A stretch of 64,000 bases of DNA from Ruminococcus sp. (lineage in GTDB: Bacteria; Bacillota; Clostridia; Oscillospirales; Ruminococcaceae). Below the pieces are notes generated by a model. That model ran no database searches and was not told the DNA's origin. It saw only the letters and a list, made by a program, of their open reading frames with translations. The stretch spans positions 124,001-188,000 of the forward strand of contig JAFVFL010000019.1 in assembly GCA_017475555.1 (NCBI GenBank), given 5' to 3'. Below are positions 1 to 34,800 of this stretch, one piece after another (the first letter of the stretch is position 1; each line of letters opens with the position of its first letter). Made by a program: the position numbers and the translations under genes.

Positions 1-237
1 GCTGATACGGAGGAGAATCTCCGCTTTTCAAAGAGGGTCGCAGCTGAGAACGGTCTCCCCGGCGATATCACAATAGTTACAGACGGCTTTCACCAGCTGA
101 GGGCGGATATGCTTGCCCGTCAGGAGGGGCTGAGGGCCTACAATATATCGGCAAGAACTCCGGCGTGGCTGCTGCCTACCTACTGGGTGAGGGAGTGGTT
201 CGGAGTTGCATTCTACGCTGTTTTCGGAGGGAAATGA
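1..237 (+). CDS. YdcF-like (DUF218) protein, C-terminal fragment
   Basis: An open frame runs from the first base to a TGA at 235-237 and gives the last 78 residues of a protein whose start lies outside the window. The segments TEENL, VTDGFHQLRA and VREWFG match the C-terminal half of the DUF218/YdcF/SanA fold: the family's conserved S/T-E-N, T-x-x-x-H-x-x-R-A and R-E-W signatures. These are envelope-associated proteins with a Rossmann-like DUF218 domain whose chemistry is poorly known. The stop lies 1 nt before the ATG of the peptidase gene, so the two are probably co-transcribed. Membrane segments, if any, are outside the window. Family call moderately sure; substrate unknown. Confidence 0.7.
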   Translation, partial: ADTEENLRFSKRVAAENGLPGDITIVTDGFHQLRADMLARQEGLRAYNISARTPAWLLPTYWVREWFGVAFYAVFGGK

Positions 238-238
238 T

Positions 239-3200
239 ATGAGAGCTATCTCCAGAGCTGCTGCTGCTGTAACTGCGGCGGCAGTATTTTCTTTTATGCA
301 GGTGCCGCTTGCCGGCATAGCTGTCAGTACGCCGGAGCTGACCATACCCACGGCTCCCGAAGCCTCCAATCCGGAGGGAAGGTATTCTCTGTCGCTGCCT
401 GTGCTGCACGGTCTGCGTGATGATGACGCTCCGGGAGAGGTAACTATCGGCGGTATATATGCTGAGATGAACAGAATGACAGACCTTTACGGCAGTCTTG
501 ATTCGCTCCCGCCGAGCTTCAGCCTGCGTGACGAGGGTACTATGTCACCGGTGCGGGATCAGTCGGGCTATGGTACGTGCTGGGCACATTCCGCTGTGGC
601 AAGTGCGGAGTCCTGGCTTTTCCACACTCTCCCGGCAGTTGATCTTTCAGAGTTCCACACTGCGTACTACACCTACTACAACGACCCGATGACGATGTAC
701 ATGACGGACAAGGATATATTGCAGATAGGCGGAACTGCGGACTATATCGTGAATCTCTGGGCACACGGGACAGGCCCGGTGTCGGAAAGGGTGCTGCCCT
801 ACGGCGACCTTGAAACGCTTGCCGCAGAAAAGCTCACGCTGTCCGCCGGCAGAGAGTACAGTCTTGAAAATGCCTATCTTTTTGATTATTCATACGAGCG
901 TGAGAACGAGGACGAGGTGAACAGCCTTGTCAAGCAGTTCGTCTACAGCGGTCATGCCGTAGATGTGAGCTTCTGTGCAAATTCGTATCTGTATTACAGC
1001 ACGGCATACAGCAGCACAAACTGCGACCGTCCGGCGAGATTTGCCACTCATTCAGTGGCGATCGCAGGCTGGGACGACAGCTTCCCGAAGGAGAATTTCA
1101 GAGTACAGCCGGAAAATGACGGAGCATGGCTCGTCAAGAACAGCTGGGGGAGCGGATACGGCGACGGCGGCTATATCTGGATATCGTATGAGGACAGGTC
1201 ACTGTGTGAATTTGCGGTGTACGAGCTTGGCGATGCGGCAGAATACGACCTGTCGTGGCATATGGGCAATTATGTGCCGACGCAGAGCCTTTCAGCCCAC
1301 AGCAGCGATAATACCGGCGAACCGTCATATATGGCAGGCATATATACCGCAGGTGAGAACGATCAAATCGGTGCGATAGGCATATACACAAGGCAGCCTG
1401 ACACGAGCTATGAGATAACGATATATTCCGGGCTTACTGACCCGGCTGACCCAGCGTCCGGAACGCCCTCGGCGGTAACGAGGGGCGAGATCGCTCTCAC
1501 GGGCTATCACACGCTGCGTCTTGATGACTTTGTACCGGTAGAAGAGGGGCTTTTCGGCGTAGTCGTGAAGATGTACAGTCCGGAGTCGGATTATGTTATC
1601 CCGGCTGAATGCTGTATAGCAGTCACCAATTCTGAGACGGGCGAGGTGACGAGCCTTACGTCATACTCCACGTATGAGCAGATAATCAACAGTATCAGCC
1701 CCGGCGAGAGCTTCTACAGTGCTGACGGAGCCAACTGGACTGACATATGCGGTGACGACTATCATTACACCGACGAAGAAGAGCAGATACTTCTTGATTC
1801 GGTGTACAGGCAGCTCATTGAGGGTATCTCGCCCGACGATGCAAATGAGATGCAGTCCATAGATGCGGTCATGAAGCGTTACAAGACAATGTTCTCCGAG
1901 GGAGAGACCGGTGCGTATATGGGGCATATACCGCTCGATGTCTACGGCGACACGGAGGGGAAGGTCATATTCTCCCGTGACAGCGGAATGGTCAGGGACG
2001 GCGAAACGATATCGCTCAGAGCCGTCGGCGGCGGAGAGATACACTACGTTGACAGCAGCGGGACTGAAATGCTGTACACAGAGCCTTTAAAAATAGAGCA
2101 GGAGACGGAGATAATGGCGTTTACCCGTGAGGATATGCAGGTCTGGAAGTATTATGTACCGGAAAAGGCACCGCTCATCAGTCTGAGCGTGCTGGCGGGG
2201 GACAGTACCGATGAGGCTGAGCTTACCATGCCTCCGGCGGACGTTATATCCGGAGAGATAGGCGTTATGATAGATTCAGACGTCACGAGCATAAGGATAA
2301 AGGCGGTATCGAACGGCAGCATCACAGTTGACGGACAGACTGCGGTGAGCGGAGAATATACCGGGGATATCGACATTTCCGGCGTTGACAGCATAACGGT
2401 AACGGCAGCTCAGGACGGCTTCCCGGACAATGAGATAACTCTGCTGCTGAACAGAAGGTACGGCGTTATCGACCCGGAGACCGGTATAATAACGATACAC
2501 GGCGGATATAGCGCAACAGCTGAGGACGGTACCCTGATAGAGAGCGGCAGCTCTGTTATGGATCACGCCGGAGAGACGCTTATTGTGTACAGCAGCGACG
2601 GAACAGAGGAGCTGGACTATATTTTCGTGCCGCAAAAGGCAGATGTGAGCGGTCTTGTGATAGACTATGCAGGCGAGGCACTTTCCGGTATCCCTCAGGA
2701 GCTTGTGAATGAGCTTGAATACGCTGTGACGGACGAGCCGACGGAGGAGGACTGGCACAGTGCGGAAATGCGGCTGATCTTTGCCGAAGAGGTCGGGCTT
2801 GCAGTTATTCCGGGCGAGACGATAAGTCTGAGGGTAAGGGCGAGTGAGCAGCATTTTGCAGGCGAAACGGTCGTGTACAATATCCCCGCTGCACCTGCCG
2901 CACCGGAGAAAGTGCCGGAGTACAGGCTTGACGGAAGGGATATCATCGTAACAGACGAGAGGTTTGAGGCTGCACCGAAGCCGGAGGCATACGGGCACTT
3001 TGTCGAGGCAGCGTGTGATCTCTACGGCTACAGCGACCTTGAGCAGTTCAGGGAGCTGCTTTCGGCGAGGTATGGTGCAGCAGATTCGCAGGAGCTGATG
3101 GATGCAATGGCGATATACTGGGACGATACAGCAAGAACGGGGGAAACGGCGACGTTTCGCATAAAGGCTTCGGACGATTCATTTGCATCGGCGATCCTCA

Positions 3201-3442
3201 CGGCAGTGCTGTATGCTCCGGGAGACGTAAATCAGGACGGATTTGTGGATTCAACGGACGCAAGCGATATTCTTGTACACTATGCAGACACGGCAACAGG
3301 CGGCAGCGGAACGATAGCTGAGGAGCTAAGGGGCTATGCGGACATGGATGGCAGCGGTATAATTGACTCTGCGGATGCGAGCATGATACTTACGATCTAT
3401 GCGGCACTTTCCACACAGACCACGCAGACCGTGCAGGAATGA
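239..3442 (+). CDS. Secreted papain-like (C1A) cysteine peptidase with C-terminal dockerin
   Basis: 1067 residues. The ATG at 239 is preceded by GGAGG at 226-230. Residues 1-30 form a signal peptide. The C1A core shows Cys114 in SGYGTCWAHSAV, His271 in THSVAIAGWDD and Asn301 in VKNSWGSGYG, giving the complete papain Cys-His-Asn triad. It is followed by a beta-rich region of the kind seen after gut C1A peptidases (lectin-like) and by repetitive beta domains to about residue 990. Residues 995-1060 form a two-repeat dockerin (GDVNQDGFVDSTDAS and YADMDGSGIIDSADAS) with calcium-loop spacing. Such proteins are exported and dock onto cohesin scaffoldins. No large extra propeptide is evident between the signal peptide and the triad. 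Its substrate, whether plant cell-wall protein, host protein or a cellulosome component, cannot be read from sequence. It probably shares an mRNA with the YdcF-like gene. Confidence 0.88.
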   Translation: MRAISRAAAAVTAAAVFSFMQVPLAGIAVSTPELTIPTAPEASNPEGRYSLSLPVLHGLRDDDAPGEVTIGGIYAEMNRMTDLYGSLDSLPPSFSLRDEGTMSPVRDQSGYGTCWAHSAVASAESWLFHTLPAVDLSEFHTAYYTYYNDPMTMYMTDKDILQIGGTADYIVNLWAHGTGPVSERVLPYGDLETLAAEKLTLSAGREYSLENAYLFDYSYERENEDEVNSLVKQFVYSGHAVDVSFCANSYLYYSTAYSSTNCDRPARFATHSVAIAGWDDSFPKENFRVQPENDGAWLVKNSWGSGYGDGGYIWISYEDRSLCEFAVYELGDAAEYDLSWHMGNYVPTQSLSAHSSDNTGEPSYMAGIYTAGENDQIGAIGIYTRQPDTSYEITIYSGLTDPADPASGTPSAVTRGEIALTGYHTLRLDDFVPVEEGLFGVVVKMYSPESDYVIPAECCIAVTNSETGEVTSLTSYSTYEQIINSISPGESFYSADGANWTDICGDDYHYTDEEEQILLDSVYRQLIEGISPDDANEMQSIDAVMKRYKTMFSEGETGAYMGHIPLDVYGDTEGKVIFSRDSGMVRDGETISLRAVGGGEIHYVDSSGTEMLYTEPLKIEQETEIMAFTREDMQVWKYYVPEKAPLISLSVLAGDSTDEAELTMPPADVISGEIGVMIDSDVTSIRIKAVSNGSITVDGQTAVSGEYTGDIDISGVDSITVTAAQDGFPDNEITLLLNRRYGVIDPETGIITIHGGYSATAEDGTLIESGSSVMDHAGETLIVYSSDGTEELDYIFVPQKADVSGLVIDYAGEALSGIPQELVNELEYAVTDEPTEEDWHSAEMRLIFAEEVGLAVIPGETISLRVRASEQHFAGETVVYNIPAAPAAPEKVPEYRLDGRDIIVTDERFEAAPKPEAYGHFVEAACDLYGYSDLEQFRELLSARYGAADSQELMDAMAIYWDDTARTGETATFRIKASDDSFASAILTAVLYAPGDVNQDGFVDSTDASDILVHYADTATGGSGTIAEELRGYADMDGSGIIDSADASMILTIYAALSTQTTQTVQE

Positions 3443-3664
3443 CAAAACCAACAAAAAAACAGATGTTTTTTCGTCAGAATATTGGAATCATTGGGCAAAT
3501 GCAATAAATCTCAGGTCTGCTATATGTGAAATAGAGTCAAAAAATGTCAGTTACCAAATTGTAACTTTTGAAATATGTTTCCGAGAAATATGTGATAATG
3601 GACGAAAAAATGCTGTTGAAACTATACAGACTGCTCAAAAAATATTAAAGAATGATTCAAGGCA
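3443..3664. other. AT-rich intergenic stretch
   Basis: About 220 bp between the peptidase stop and the promoter of the sugar importer. It is AT-rich and shows no convincing gene. Near the start an A-run/T-run dyad (AAAAAACA-GA-TGTTTTTT, about 3455-3472) could serve as a weak terminator for the peptidase mRNA. Nothing else was recognised. Confidence 0.35.
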
Positions 3665-3693
3665 TTGACTTTGACGAAAAAATAAGTTATATT
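3665..3693 (+). promoter_or_regulatory. Sigma-A promoter of the sugar ABC importer
   Basis: TTGACT at 3665-3670, a 17-nt spacer and TATATT at 3688-3693. Initiation would fall near 3700, leaving a leader of about 335 nt before the ATG at 4036. Confidence 0.7.
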
Positions 3694-3700
3694 TGAATTA

Positions 3701-4020
3701 AAGCAGGGGCGGGAAGGGCGTAGACCCCGAAGGCTTTCTGCAATACGTACCAACCGGTACGTACACAGCAGCGGTCTGATCCGGCGGTGCCGGAATCGAG
3801 TGCTGCCGTGCCTGTCAGTACACCTGAGCATGAGAATCATGCGTCTGACTTCCCTGATACTGCCGGACAGCCAGCGTCCTGAGCGAGTACATTCGCCGGA
3901 CAGAGCCTGAAGGGAGTGGCAGGAGCAGCAGGCTCCACGACAGGAGAGAAACCATCTTTCATAGCTGCGTTTATGCTCATTAAATAGTTATTATGGCATA
4001 TCCCCACGCAGCACATTTTA
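3701..4020 (+). ncRNA. Multi-stem structured leader RNA (unassigned)
   Basis: A G+C-rich, non-coding block between a good promoter and the binding-protein gene. Stems visible by eye: AGACC 3722-3726 with GGTCT 3773-3777, enclosing CTGC/GCAG (3738-3741/3768-3771) and a perfect 8-bp hairpin TACGTACC-AACC-GGTACGTA (3744-3763); TCCGGC-GGT-GCCGGA (3780-3794); GTCAG/CTGAC (3814-3818/3845-3849) enclosing GCATGA-GAA-TCATGC (3828-3842); GGAC/GTCC (3865-3879); GCGA/TCGC (3883-3896); GGAGC/GCTCC (3922-3936); GCTGCGT/ACGCAGC (3964-3970/4006-4012) enclosing TATGC/GCATA. The last stem ends 8 nt before the Shine-Dalgarno AGGAGG at 4021. There is no poly-U terminator. It could be a cis-regulatory leader or an independent ncRNA read through into the operon. 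I cannot assign it to a known family by eye. Confidence 0.55.
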
Positions 4021-4035
4021 AGGAGGAAAAATCTG

Positions 4036-5532
4036 ATGAACACACTTAAGAAGACACTTGCACTCGTAGCAACTATGGCTATGGCTGCAACTGCTTTCGC
4101 ATCATGCGGAAGCGACTCATCAAGCTCAACTTCTGAGTCCAAGGCTGATTCTTCAAGCAGCGAGGCTGCTGAGGACAATTCAGGGGACGAGTCCTCTGAG
4201 GCTGAGGAGTCTGAGGCTGAGGAGAAGCCTGATGTAGCGGCTGAGAGCGGAGACATCTCTGCTGACGTTGCTACAGGCGGCGACACATTCACAGTAGCTG
4301 CTTGGAACGCAGACGATGTTCCTTACCTCATCGCTCAGTGGAAGGGCATTTCTTTCGACACTATCGCTGATGACCTTGCTAACGGCAACGTTGAGGGTAT
4401 CGACTTCATCAACTTCGGTGTAGGCGGCGGCGACGCAGCTGAGAAGTATGATCAGCTCTTCCAGGCTGGTTCTGACCTCGATGTTTACTTCTGCGAGGCT
4501 GACTGGGCACTCAAGTACATAAACGACGACACTAAGACTCTTGCACTCTCTGAGCTCGGTCTTGGCGACAGCGATTTCGCTAACATCTACAGCTACACCG
4601 ATGAGATTGGCAAGGACAGCAACGGAATCCGTAAGGGCGTTTCATGGCAGGCTGCAGCAGGCGGTTTCTACTACAGAAAGGATCTTGCTGAGCAGTACCT
4701 CGGTGCTACAACTCCTGATGAGATGCAGGCACAGATCAGCAACTGGGCTGATTTCGTAACAGCTGCTAAGACTGTAAACGAGCAGTCTGGCGGTAAGACA
4801 GCTCTCGCTGATACACTCGGCGGTATGTGGCAGGCTTACGCTTGCGGCAGAAAGACACCTTGGGTTGTTGACAACACTCTCCAGATAGACGACTTCTGCG
4901 AGGAGTTCGCTAAGACAGCTAAGGAGCTCTGGGACAACGGCGGTATCACAAAGAACAGCCAGTGGTCTGATGAGTGGACTGCTGCTGGTACAAACGACAG
5001 CTGCATGGGTTACTTCGTATCTACATGGGGCTTCGGTGGCTTCGCTCTCGACGCTGCAGGCGGCGAGGACGGTTCAGCATATGGTCTCTGGAACGTATGC
5101 GAGGGCCCGCAGGCATTCTTCTGGGGCGGTACATGGATCGTTGTTAACCCTGCTACAGATAACGGTGACCTCGCTCGTGAGTTCATTGTTTCTGCTACTT
5201 CTGATGAGGCTCAGCTCGCTGACTACGCAGTTAAGAAGCCTGAGTATGTAAACAACAGCAAGGTTATGGATGATCTTATCAGCTCTAACACAGTATTCAA
5301 CGAGAAGATCACAAACAACCTCGGCGGACAGAACTTCTATGAGGCTCTCGCTGAGAACGCTAAGACAATCGACTTCAAGGGACTTATCACTCCTTACGAT
5401 GCAACGATCAAGACTGACTTCATCGATGCAGTTAAGACTGAGTACCTTGAGGGTAGCGGTGACTGGGATGCTACAGTTGAGGCATTCAAGGACAAGATCG
5501 CTGAGGATGTTACAGCTATCAACGTTGACTAA
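4036..5532 (+). CDS. Sugar ABC transporter solute-binding lipoprotein
   Basis: 498 residues. A lipoprotein signal with lipobox AFASC (Cys24) is followed by a Ser/Glu/Asp-rich linker (about 25-80) and an extracellular solute-binding protein family 1 fold. Two MalFG-type permease genes follow directly, so this is the capture subunit of a carbohydrate importer anchored outside the membrane. AGGAGG at 4021-4026 sets the start. Codon choice is biased: Ala is almost entirely GCT/GCA, unlike the GCG/GCC-tolerant neighbours, which suggests very high expression. The ligand cannot be read from sequence; an oligosaccharide is likely given the organism. A long structured leader precedes it. Confidence 0.88.
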   Translation: MNTLKKTLALVATMAMAATAFASCGSDSSSSTSESKADSSSSEAAEDNSGDESSEAEESEAEEKPDVAAESGDISADVATGGDTFTVAAWNADDVPYLIAQWKGISFDTIADDLANGNVEGIDFINFGVGGGDAAEKYDQLFQAGSDLDVYFCEADWALKYINDDTKTLALSELGLGDSDFANIYSYTDEIGKDSNGIRKGVSWQAAAGGFYYRKDLAEQYLGATTPDEMQAQISNWADFVTAAKTVNEQSGGKTALADTLGGMWQAYACGRKTPWVVDNTLQIDDFCEEFAKTAKELWDNGGITKNSQWSDEWTAAGTNDSCMGYFVSTWGFGGFALDAAGGEDGSAYGLWNVCEGPQAFFWGGTWIVVNPATDNGDLAREFIVSATSDEAQLADYAVKKPEYVNNSKVMDDLISSNTVFNEKITNNLGGQNFYEALAENAKTIDFKGLITPYDATIKTDFIDAVKTEYLEGSGDWDATVEAFKDKIAEDVTAINVD

Positions 5533-5571: not shown

Positions 5572-5599
5572 CCTACGGGATACTTCGGTATTCCGTAGG
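5572..5599 (+). terminator. Intercistronic UUCG hairpin
   Basis: CCTACGGGATAC-TTCG-GTATTCCGTAGG, a 12-bp stem with a UUCG loop (one G-U pair), lies between the binding protein and the first permease. The tail TGTATATTTATTT is only partly U-rich, so it probably acts as a partial terminator or 3' stabiliser. That would keep the binding protein more abundant than the permeases. Confidence 0.65.
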
Positions 5600-5644
5600 T
5601 GTATATTTATTTAACAAATTACCTAATTTGAGAGGGTGTGTGTT

Positions 5645-6721
5645 ATGGCATCAGCTGCTCAGAGACGAATCAAATCAATCAGCTATGCGAAATACGGCTA
5701 TCTGTTCATTCTGCCGTTTTTTATCGTTTATTTCTTTTTCCAGTTATGGCCTCTGATAAACACCTTTATTCTTAGCTTTAAGGACTACACAGGTGATAAC
5801 TTTGTAGGTCTTGCTAACTACAAGGCTATTTTCCGCGGTATCGGCACCGAGACTGAGGGATTCAAGATCGCTGACAGAACCGCAAAGGCTATAAGCAAGA
5901 ATTTCTACCATTCCTTCGGCAATACTGTTATACTCTGGGTCGGAAACTTCATTCCTCAGATCATTCTGTCGCTCTCACTTGCAGTTTGGTTCACTGAGGC
6001 TAATCTGAAGATACCGGGCAAGGGCTTCTTTAAGATAGTAATGTATCTGCCGAATATCATCACAGCAGCTTCTGTTGCTGTACTCTTCCTTCAGCTCTGC
6101 GGTGAGGCTGAGAACACCCCTGGTGCTCTTAATCTTCTGCTCAGCAAAATGGGTATCGTAAGTCACGATACTGTTTCTGACAAATACGACACTGTTAAGT
6201 TTGTAACAGGTACCGCTCAGTCAAGAGTTGTCGTTATGTTCATTCAGACATGGCTCTGGTTCGGTAATACCATGATCATGCTCATGTCTGGTATCCAGGG
6301 TATCAACCCGTCACTGTTCGAGGCTGCAAGCATTGATGGCGCTACAGCCGGACAGGTTTTCAGAAAGATCACACTTCCTCTGCTCAGCCCTATCATGGCT
6401 TACACCCTTGTAACCTCCATGATCGGTGGTCTGCAGATGTTCGATATTCCTTACCTCTATCATAAGGATCCTAACAAGGTCAGTGACAACCTGAAAACGG
6501 TCGCTGTGTATATCTATGAGTATTTCCACGATCAGACCGACCCGAAGATGGGCTTTGCGGGTGCTGCATCAGTGCTTCTCTTCATCGTTACGCTTATCCT
6601 TGGCTGCATTGCGTTCTATCTGACACGTGATAAGGACGAGATCGCTAAGAAGAAGCAGCGCAAGAAGGTCGCTAAGCAGCTCAAGCAGCAGAATAAGCAG
6701 TTTGGAGGTCTGTCGATATGA
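5645..6721 (+). CDS. Sugar ABC transporter permease, MalF-type
   Basis: 358 residues. The ATG at 5645 has AGAGGG at 5631-5636 with 8-nt spacing; an in-frame GTG nine bases upstream would lack a usable Shine-Dalgarno. The protein starts with a cytoplasmic tail and first membrane helix at about 15-40, a family-typical long periplasmic-side loop, and further helices to about 330. The EAA loop (FEAASIDGATAGQVFRKITL) that contacts the ATPase lies near residue 225. The Lys-rich C-terminus is cytoplasmic. It overlaps the next permease by 4 nt (ATGA). No ATPase gene follows, so a shared MsmX/UgpC-type ATPase encoded elsewhere is inferred. Confidence 0.9.
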   Translation: MASAAQRRIKSISYAKYGYLFILPFFIVYFFFQLWPLINTFILSFKDYTGDNFVGLANYKAIFRGIGTETEGFKIADRTAKAISKNFYHSFGNTVILWVGNFIPQIILSLSLAVWFTEANLKIPGKGFFKIVMYLPNIITAASVAVLFLQLCGEAENTPGALNLLLSKMGIVSHDTVSDKYDTVKFVTGTAQSRVVVMFIQTWLWFGNTMIMLMSGIQGINPSLFEAASIDGATAGQVFRKITLPLLSPIMAYTLVTSMIGGLQMFDIPYLYHKDPNKVSDNLKTVAVYIYEYFHDQTDPKMGFAGAASVLLFIVTLILGCIAFYLTRDKDEIAKKKQRKKVAKQLKQQNKQFGGLSI

Positions 6722-7614
6722 GTAAAATGAAAGCAGTTTACGGCGAGGACAAGGGCAGCTATACCGCCAAGCTCAGGACTAAGTCCATTATTCTGACTAT
6801 CTGGTTCATTATACTGACCATTATATGTCTTCTCCCGATCTACATTCTTATAATCAACGCTACTCGTGAGTCATCTTCGATCGCTAACGGAGTATCTTTC
6901 CTCCCGGGTACAAATCTTGGAAAGAATATCACTAAGCTTTTCAAGGACGTAAACTACAACACAGTTTACAATGTATGGATAGGTTACAGAAACTCGTTCA
7001 TCATAACCGGTTTCTCAACTGTCTTTACAGTGTTCTTCTCAGCTATGACAGCTTACGGAATCCATGTATATGACTTCAAGCTCAAGGAGATCTCATATAC
7101 CGTAATACTTCTGGTAATGATGGTTCCAATGCAGGTTACATCTGCCGGTTTCGTAAACTTCATGCTCAAGCTTCACCTCACAGATACATACTGGCCGCTC
7201 ATACTCCCGGCTATTGCAGCACCTGCTGTTGTATACTTCATGCGTTCATACATGAAGTCCTCGTTCCCTCTTGATATCGTTGAGGCTGCGAGAATAGACG
7301 GATGCAGTGAGTTCAGGACTTTTGTTTCAATTGCGATCCCGATGATGAAGCCGGCTATCGCTGTACAGGCTATTTTCGCCTTCATAGCAAGCTGGAACAA
7401 CTTCTATACACCTAACATGATACTTATTTCTTCAAAGTTCAAGCAGAAGACTCTCCCGATGATGGTTTCTGCTATCCAGGCTTCGGATAAGTTCACTGAT
7501 TATGGTGCTATTTACCTTGCTATCGCTCTTTCGATACTTCCTATCGTTATCATCTACGTACTGCTCTCCAGATTTATCATTGCTGGTGTTGCACTCGGTG
7601 GTGTAAAGGAGTAA
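6718..7614 (+). CDS. Sugar ABC transporter permease, MalG-type
   Basis: 298 residues, about six membrane helices, and an EAA loop (VEAARIDGCSEFRTFVSIAI) near residue 185. It is the second half of the heterodimeric sugar permease, translationally coupled to the MalF-type partner by an ATGA overlap. A strong terminator follows. Length and topology are normal for the MalG/CUT1 family. Substrate unknown. Confidence 0.9.
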   Translation: MSKMKAVYGEDKGSYTAKLRTKSIILTIWFIILTIICLLPIYILIINATRESSSIANGVSFLPGTNLGKNITKLFKDVNYNTVYNVWIGYRNSFIITGFSTVFTVFFSAMTAYGIHVYDFKLKEISYTVILLVMMVPMQVTSAGFVNFMLKLHLTDTYWPLILPAIAAPAVVYFMRSYMKSSFPLDIVEAARIDGCSEFRTFVSIAIPMMKPAIAVQAIFAFIASWNNFYTPNMILISSKFKQKTLPMMVSAIQASDKFTDYGAIYLAIALSILPIVIIYVLLSRFIIAGVALGGVKE

Positions 7615-31809: not shown

Positions 31810-34800
31810 TCACTCCTCCAGCTTCCTGAAATACTCATCTGCACTGTCAGTACCGCCTGTGGAGACGTATGCGTAGAATTGCAGCACCAGTGAAGCGTCG
31901 GCAGCGTCGATAAATGTATCGCCATTGATATCCGCCGAAGCGAGCAGCTCCTCGGTCAGCTCAGCATTTCCGCCGGTCGATATCGCAGCGTACAGCTGGA
32001 GCATTTCCGAAGCGTCATTTGCGTCCACAATGCCGTCACCGTTTATATCCCCCTTGGTCTGGGCTCCTGACATGATCCTGACGGTGTACGAGTACAGCTT
32101 TCCGCCGAATATAGCATATATTTTCGTCTCACCCGGAGCGACTGCCGTTACGACACCATTTTCAACAGAGGCGATCTCACTGTTTTCGCTCGCCCAGCTG
32201 ATCTCAGTGCCGGCAGGTACATCAGGTATCTCAATGGCTGTTGTTTCGCCTGCCTTTATACGGATAACGTTGGTTTGTGTAGCTGCAGCCGTTGTTTCAG
32301 CAGATGTTGTGGTCGCAGCTGTGGTGGAAGTCACAGTGGTGGCAGCTGCGGTAGCGGTTGTAGCGGTCGTCACCGTGGTCGTTTGTGTACCGGGAGAGCC
32401 TACAGTCACTTTGAACGATGATCTGATCGTATACATTTTGCCTTCCAGATATATCGTTATCTCTGTTTCGCCAACAGATACACCAAGCAAAGTAATGCGA
32501 AGCGTATTGCTGTCGATCTTTTCTATGCTTATCACATCAGCAATATCAGGTTCAGCACTTTGTATGGTATAGCCGGGGCTAAACAATCCATGTGTTATAT
32601 CCATTGTTACTGTCTGCCCGACTTCAATGCTTTGATTCTTCTCTCCATGAATTTCCGGCACTTCTTCGATGTTGGCGGAGGTTGTGGTTTCTGTAGTCGT
32701 TACAGCTTCTTCCGGTGTGATAACGACGGTTTTCGACACCTCAGCAAGCCATATGGATTGATCCTCGCCGTCATATACAGTTATCGTGACAGTAGTCGTT
32801 CCTTCAGACAATGCCCTGAGAGCGGGGCCTCCGGAAGACCATTCTACCATGCTGTTAGGGTGGAGATACCAGTATACGGAGCTGCTCGGAGAGGAGATAA
32901 GTATACCTGAGAGTGTGAATGTATCACCCACGTGTACATATAGATATTCAGGGTTTTGGGTTACAGGCATTGTGGCAGCTGTGGTCGTAGTGGCAGTTGT
33001 GGTCGTAGTGGTAGTTGTGGTAGTAGTCGTAGTAGTCGTTGTTGTAGTAGTTGTTGTAGTTGAGGTCGTTATTACCGGGAAGGTATAGTCCTCGTCTATG
33101 CTTACAAAGGTTCTGCTGTATTTTTCCGCATATGCCTCTGCTGTTGAACCCGTATGCCCATATATTGCAGTTTTACTTGGAATTGTAATCGAACTGTTGT
33201 ATAACTGACATTCAGCATTATGTATAACGATATAAACAAGGCTTGAACATTCGTAAAAAGCTTGTTTCCCAATACTTGTAACGCCGTCGGGTATCACTAC
33301 TGATTCAAGGCTTATATTGCCATAAAAAGCTCTTTCCCCGATACTTGTAACACTGTCAGGTATTTTTATTGATTCAAGGCTTGAACAGCTGTAAAAAGCA
33401 TAATTCCCGATACTTGTAATACTGTCGGGTATTATTATTGATTCAAGGCTTGAACAGTCGTCAAAAGCATAATTCCCGATACTTGTAACGCTGTCAGGTA
33501 TTATTATTGATTCAAGGCTTGAACAGTCGTAAAAAGCTTGTTCCCCAATACTTGTAACGCCGTCGGGTATCGTATATTCTGTTCCATCTTTTTCTTCCGG
33601 ATAGCGGATAAGCTCGGTTTTGTCCTTGTTGAAAAGAACTCCGTCCTCGCTTGAATAATATGGATTATCAGGCGACACGATTATTTCTTTTAGTTTTTTA
33701 CTTCTGGTCGGAAGATTGTTTGTGTCTTCAAGACCACTTCCGATCGTGATATAGGATACATTATAACAGCCATCAAAAGCTTCTTTCCCAATACTTGTAA
33801 CGCCATCAGGTATCACTACGGATTCAAGGCTTCTATTGCCATAAAAAACTCTTTCCCCGATACTTGTAACACTGTCAGGTATTTTTACTGATTCAAGGCT
33901 TGAACAGCCGTAAAAAGCATAATTCGCGATACTTGTAACGCTGTCGGGTATAACTATTGATGTTAGGCTTTCACAGTAACTAAAAGTACTGTTTTCGATA
34001 GTTGTAACGCTGTCGGATATCTCTACTGATGTAAGTCTTGGACAGTCGTAAAAAGCTCTTTCTCCGATAATTGTAACGCTGTCAGGTATCATTATGGATT
34101 CAAGGCTTGAACAGTATTCAAAAGCATTGTCTCCGACACTTGTAACGCTGTCGGGTATCATTATGGATTCAAGGCTTGAACAGTATTCAAAAGCATTGTC
34201 TCCGATACTTGTAACGCCATAAGGTATGGTATACTCTCCTTCTTTTTCACTCGGATAACGGATAAGCTCGGTTCTGTCCTTGTTGAAAAGAACTCCGTCC
34301 TCGCTTGAATAGTATGGATTATCAGGCGATACATTTATTTCTTTTCTGCCGGTCGGAATCTCACTTATGTCTTCAATACCGCTTCCTATTGTTATAGAGG
34401 CGGGAGAACATCTGTAAAAAACATTGCTTCCGATATTTGTGATCCCGTTGCCAAGCACTATTGATTCAAGACTTGAACAGCCGTAAAAAGCATTGCTGCC
34501 GATACTTGTAACACCGTCGGGGATATTTACAGAGGTAAGGCTTGAACAGTTCTCGAACGCGTGGCTGTCGATGCGTGTAATACTGTCGGGCAGCGTCAGC
34601 GAGGTCAGCTTTTTACAGTCCTTGAATGCGGAGTAGCCGATATTCGTGATCCCGTTATTTATCACAACACTTGTGATATTGCCGGTGAAATCGCTCCACG
34701 GCGGAGAAGACGGCATACTTCCGGTGCCGGAGATTATAAGCACGCCGGTATCCTCATAGTACAGGGCTGTCATATTATCATAAGTATATACGGTGACGGG

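Follow-up and report, generated by a model that had tools for sequence, protein, structure and literature searches.

A structured RNA precedes the binding-protein gene of a sugar ABC importer in Ruminococcus sp., and our analysis places it in what is apparently a previously undescribed, genus-specific family of cis-acting leader RNAs. That a conserved structured leader exists at this locus is almost certain. No description of it was found in the open-access literature that we searched (subscription papers lay outside the scope of that search). The window, by which we mean the whole 64,000-nucleotide stretch of DNA analysed, carries the promoter, the hexaloop hairpin (H-C) and the hairpin nearest the Shine-Dalgarno sequence (H-D) that define the family, in the expected place 5′ of the binding-protein gene. 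The features of the locus are as follows.

3665 to 3693, + strand: sigma-70-type promoter, TTGACT (3665-3670), 17 nt, TATATT (3688-3693); from the sequence, with a matching promoter in the orthologous leaders
3700 to 4019, + strand: structured, variable leader RNA, transcription start predicted; 342 nt from −10 box to ATG
3744 to 3842, + strand: species-specific perfect stems (3744-3763, 3780-3794, 3828-3842); from sequence and fold, unaligned in relatives
3876 to 3901, + strand: H-C, with GUCC/GGAC, an internal loop and GCGA/UCGC closing the hexaloop GUACAU; from motif count, covariation and a local match to covariance model R1 at 3880-3897
3945 to 3963, + strand: A/pyrimidine-rich single-stranded linker between the H-C arm and H-D; from the sequence, with a similar linker in relatives
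3964 to 4012, + strand: H-D, in a longer, divergent version in this species; from counts of anchored stems
4020 to 4026, + strand: Shine-Dalgarno sequence AAGGAGG; SD/start region identical or near-identical across the genus (blastn)
4036 to 5532, + strand: secreted substrate-binding lipoprotein of an ABC importer; weak match to a cellobiose-binding protein
5572 to 5599, + strand: stem-loop CCTACGG...CCGTAGG, followed by TGTATATTTATTT; from the sequence
5636 to 6721 and 6718 to 7614, + strand: two ABC permeases of the operon (Pfam BPD_transp_1)

The only solved relative of the binding protein found by sequence is the cellobiose-binding protein 8bfy, a weak match (E 5e-4), and the sugar of the operon is probably a cello-oligosaccharide. 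The earlier note had described the importer as highly expressed, and indirect support for this comes from codon usage: the binding-protein gene has an ENC of 30.9, below that of every other long ORF in the window (44 ORFs; next 42.1, median 49.0), and such codon usage, by far the most biased in the window, fits very high expression. No importer ATPase gene adjoins the binding-protein and permease genes in the window. The stem-loop between the binding-protein and first permease genes probably acts as a partial terminator inside the operon, or as a stabiliser; in cellulolytic clostridia, intergenic stem-loops of ABC importer operons set the ratio of binding protein to permeases (PMC9045158). On the other side of the locus, the AT-rich segment at 3460-3664, 5′ of the promoter, keeps its sequence well in relatives (TTACCGATTTGTAACTTTT, TTGAAAATGTACA and ATTAAAGAACGATTCAAAGCATTGACTTT are examples), which suggests upstream transcriptional control. 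Further 5′, positions 206-3442 encode a protease of the papain family that has lectin-like and dockerin domains.

All of the stems named in the earlier note are present in the window, as is the promoter that it placed ahead of them. They include the perfect stems TACGTACC (3744-3751) with GGTACGTA (3756-3763), TCCGGC (3780-3785) with GCCGGA (3789-3794) and GCATGA (3828-3833) with TCATGC (3837-3842). The stem GCTGCGT (3964-3970) with ACGCAGC (4006-4012) is indeed the last before the Shine-Dalgarno sequence, and it ends 7 nt 5′ of AAGGAGG rather than the 8 nt given. The G+C-rich block between promoter and binding-protein gene (3701-4019) is highly structured, as had been claimed, with a folding energy of −123.2 kcal/mol for the + strand (z = −2.9), a value that 1 in 100 dinucleotide shuffles matched. 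Because the − strand folds nearly as well (z = −2.4), folding energy alone is weak evidence and does not fix the strand. Both the strand and the reality of the leader were taken from 75 orthologous leaders, in which the promoter, the hexaloop hairpin and the SD-proximal hairpin recur.

Of 125 genomes in the genus, 116 have an orthologue of the binding-protein gene (E 1e-30 or better). We took 79 loci, mainly from Ruminococcus flavefaciens and Ruminococcus sp., and derived from them 75 distinct leaders, with L074, L076, L079 and L080 excluded as near-duplicates. Every one of the 75 has a TTGACT/A-N17/18-TATATT-like promoter at its start, which makes it very probable that the leader is transcribed, and points to its being part of the importer mRNA, as against transcription starting just before 4036. 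The leaders are between 194 and 468 nt long and for the most part cannot be aligned in sequence; the median MFE z of the 39 leaders folded is −3.1. When the window leader was compared with the genus by blastn, the alignment fell at the SD/start region, plus two short stray matches, and the stems at 3744-3763, 3780-3794 and 3828-3842 were unrecognisable in relatives. The earlier picture of one conserved structure therefore stands in part: the leader is structured and covaries in homologues, but most of the individual stems listed are species-specific. When 38 leaders were aligned by plain MAFFT, RNAalifold recovered the H-C stem alone, and the leader was therefore handled as separate modules, of which three recur among the orthologues: the H-C hexaloop hairpin, the SD-proximal H-D and a UUAC hairpin (H-A).

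H-C is the most constant of these modules in sequence. Its strict motif GAGNACAWUC, which in the window reads GAGTACATTC at 3885-3894, occurs in 61 of the 75 leaders against 0.25 expected from dinucleotide shuffles of the same leaders, and a slightly looser pattern finds 73. In an ungapped alignment the hexaloop GNACAW is closed by A-U and G-C, and pairs 3-5 covary (U-A, C-G or G-C at one; G-C, A-U or C-G at another; and so on), with 41 doubly changed cells. The covariation score is 0.433, against 0.231 after shuffling (0 of 500 as high) and a maximum of 0.139 when slid. Some of the invariance of the loop and of pairs 1 and 2 comes from selection, since the search pattern included them; pairs 3-5, which covary, lay outside it. 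Covariation in homologous leaders, on which the earlier note had made its structure depend, is thus seen in H-C, and some double changes are seen in H-A.

The motif is also concentrated in the leaders, with 68 copies of the 10-mer in 24.6 kb of leader sequence against 21 elsewhere in 1.79 Mb (both strands of about 0.9 Mb of neighbouring DNA). Only four of those 21 have three further pairs, and these are the leader positions of the near-duplicate loci L074, L076, L079 and L080. A wider regulon was considered and rejected: in the genome that the window comes from, the other GAGNACAWTC copies that were checked (41 of 43 other sites resolved) fall within open frames. They have 0-2 further pairs each, apart from one with four, mostly wobble. 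Seven leaders (L053, L055, L056, L058, L087, L090 and L122) contain two copies of GAGTACATTC about 155 nt apart, and in the upstream copy the register of the stem seems shifted. No helix enclosing H-C was supported, as the recurring pairs CCGGC/GCCGG, GUUCUG/CAGAAC and GUUUC/GAAAC were not above shuffles (median z 0.2). The loop does not carry the apical GGA of CsrA/RsmA-type sites as a fixed element: its second position varies (G 30, T 13, C 12, A 4; n=59), so GGA is not required.

H-D is conserved in position and pairing. Perfect stems of 8 bp or longer that end 7-9 nt before AAGGAGG are present in 92% of leaders, compared with 2.7% of mononucleotide shuffles, and in 60 of 75 leaders the stem ends exactly 8 nt before the Shine-Dalgarno sequence. 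Stems of at least 9 bp stand at this place before 52 of 58 of these starts, and before 15 of 142 other SD-linked starts at the same loci. In most species H-D is AU-rich (AUAUUAUA...UAUAAUAU) and its pairing is kept despite sequence change; the window and L009, its nearest relative by the 3′ end of the leader, have different, more G+C-rich versions. Covariation in H-D is not independent evidence, because the pairs were picked as perfect stems, and alignment A4 of the H-D arms, which was out of register, is excluded from the results. Orthologues in other genera that lack H-C also have H-D, which makes H-D look older than the rest of the leader; in L177, L179, L181 and L182, all from other genera, it is present with almost no further leader. 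At L177 and L179, from other genera of the family, an open frame resembling a LacI-type regulator lies directly 5′ of the binding-protein gene, with H-D alone between them.

The third module, H-A (UUAC-NN-RGAC ... GUCUU-NN-GUAA), is found in about 29 leaders at about 156-198 nt before the start codon, and 96% of its helix pairs are standard. It is absent from the window leader.

The family appears confined to the genus. Covariance model R1, which spans H-A to H-C, matches in 73 of 125 genus genomes, usually at one locus each and with the strong matches just 5′ of the binding-protein gene, whereas a scan of 398 genomes from 126 genera of the family gave no match outside the genus (about 120 other genera). 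In the window it finds the leader through H-C only (11.4 bits, E 0.13 in 64 kb); with its divergent H-D and 5′ part and no UUAC hairpin, the window leader is consistent with an atypical, divergent member of the family. A second weak R1 match in the window, at 33084-33190 on the − strand (14.1 bits), adjoins an open stretch that is rich in repeats and ends in many ACN copies; it is without the hexaloop motif, and we regard it as chance. At G059:C12:31325-31448 an R1 match (E 6e-7) was seen in a genome in which the binding-protein gene was undetected, maybe because of a broken contig or because another gene follows.

The earlier note had also raised a separate large ncRNA such as raiA, ROOL, OLE or GOLLD, and had proposed an Rfam scan. 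No family fits: Rfam 15 gave no match to the window leader at the gathering threshold, for those four or any other family, and the best match at E up to 10 was Mu-gpT-DE (12.8 bits against a gathering score of 49, E 4.1); among the scanned leaders of relatives, none came near a gathering score. A separate ncRNA is unlikely because the leader is tied to one gene, usually at a single locus 5′ of it, and no conserved terminator precedes the Shine-Dalgarno sequence.

The reading that we prefer, though we hold it at slightly less than even odds of being right, is post-transcriptional control of the binding-protein message, through its stability or translation, by H-C and H-D. The leader would form the 5′ untranslated part of the transcript of a very highly expressed, dedicated operon for a sugar-binding protein, a fast-evolving scaffold carrying two fixed devices. 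The apical GAGNACAWUC of H-C may serve as the recognition site of a putative trans-acting RNA-binding factor, or as a tertiary contact. H-D, about 8 nt 5′ of a strong Shine-Dalgarno sequence and behind a single-stranded linker, may serve as a barrier on the 5′ side or as a boundary for processing, stabilising a message that has to be abundant and leaving the ribosome site open. Jointly, H-C and H-D would set message stability and translation of the binding protein after transcription. The duplication of H-C in some species, together with the lack of any other large invariant region, argues for protein or tertiary recognition over a metabolite pocket. A more specific proposal, which we consider doubtful, is that the GNACAW hairpin is bound by a putative regulator, RNA-binding or associated with RNA polymerase, that responds to the carbon or growth state of the cell. 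Through this one leader, the regulator would control a very abundant sugar-binding protein in cellulolytic ruminococci, by affecting either the stability of its message or read-through of the stem-loop ahead of the permease genes.

Several other explanations deserve consideration. A riboswitch, in which a sugar or other metabolite bound by the leader would switch importer expression, is suggested by the cis position before one transporter operon, by conserved structured elements with covariation, and by the long structured 5′-UTRs whose effect in a cellulosomal cluster is reported to depend on the substrate (PMC5815224). We nevertheless judge it unlikely, given that the leaders have no conserved expression platform: no conserved intrinsic terminator was found (a loose scan gave terminator-like sequences in 18 of the 75 leaders, in no fixed position, and none in the window), nor any conserved SD-sequestering sequence, the anti-SD hexamer occurring in 1 of 75 leaders. 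The pairing probability of the Shine-Dalgarno sequence is 0.51 in the window leader, with a median of 0.54 over the leaders. Further, no large riboswitch-like core was found in the leaders, the invariant core being some 10 nt in one apical loop while the remainder varies in length and sequence, and there is usually a single locus per genome. At the opposite extreme, the leader might be structured filler that provides a stable 5′ end and the Shine-Dalgarno sequence and otherwise has no specific function. Most of it is unalignable, its stems are species-specific, and some orthologues in other genera manage with H-D alone and a short leader; yet nearly all leaders keep the GAGNACAWUC hairpin invariant, with compensatory changes, which makes this explanation distinctly improbable.

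A shade more improbable still is a leader that modifies RNA polymerase for processive antitermination (put/EAR/LoaP/boxB-like), with the GNACAW hairpin recruiting a factor that alters stem-loop read-through and so tunes the ratio of binding protein to permeases. The LoaP target arrangement (PMC12691694) is similar in placing a small conserved hairpin within a long leader, there is an intergenic stem-loop after the binding-protein gene as in PMC9045158, and the GNACA loop could possibly adopt a boxB-like GNRA fold. Against it, the leader has no conserved terminator, the operon is short at three genes, and the loop of the LoaP hairpin is UNCG, not GNACAW. Very unlikely, in our estimation, is a leader that is cut off to act in trans as a small RNA: it has one strong promoter and a compact structured block set off from H-D and the Shine-Dalgarno sequence by a single-stranded linker, but it is without a conserved terminator, is tied to the binding-protein gene, and evolves too fast in sequence for conserved base-pairing targets.

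Structured leaders of carbohydrate ABC importers have been little described, and fibre-degrading ruminococci are important to ruminant and human gut function. A leader that is unalignable yet keeps one invariant and one SD-proximal hairpin throughout a genus represents a compact, directly testable case for post-transcriptional control of a very highly expressed importer, and could serve as a model for finding other fast-evolving leaders that are missed by sequence searches and by Rfam.

Among known systems, the LoaP-responsive dfn and mln leaders (PMC12691694) share with ours one small conserved hairpin in a long leader, but they have a UNCG tetraloop and a leader intrinsic terminator, where the conserved loop of the family described here is the GNACAW hexaloop and no terminator is conserved. 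The xyl-doc cluster of Clostridium papyrosolvens, a cellulolytic clostridium, serves plant-fibre utilisation and likewise has a long structured 5′-UTR (PMC5815224); going by its description, this 5′-UTR is set apart by a reported transcription block and by candidate-terminator stem-loops, of which no conserved counterpart occurs here. The internal terminators of PMC9045158 match the operon in its gene order, with the binding protein first, the permeases after and a stem-loop 3′ of the binding-protein gene (5572-5599 in the window), although that element lies downstream of the gene and the window leader is no part of that mechanism. Lastly, stem-loop-guided processing and stabilisation have been documented for the SRPS stem-loops of the Ruminiclostridium cellulolyticum cip-cel and similar operons, and, as far as the accounts in PMC4423207 and PMC10311766 describe them, these resemble the present elements as stem-loops in untranslated RNA of cellulolytic Firmicutes for which a role in setting transcript stability and subunit ratios has been proposed. 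On those accounts SRPS sites are mainly intergenic or 3′, whereas the leader elements of the ruminococci lie 5′ of the first gene and carry an invariant loop motif.
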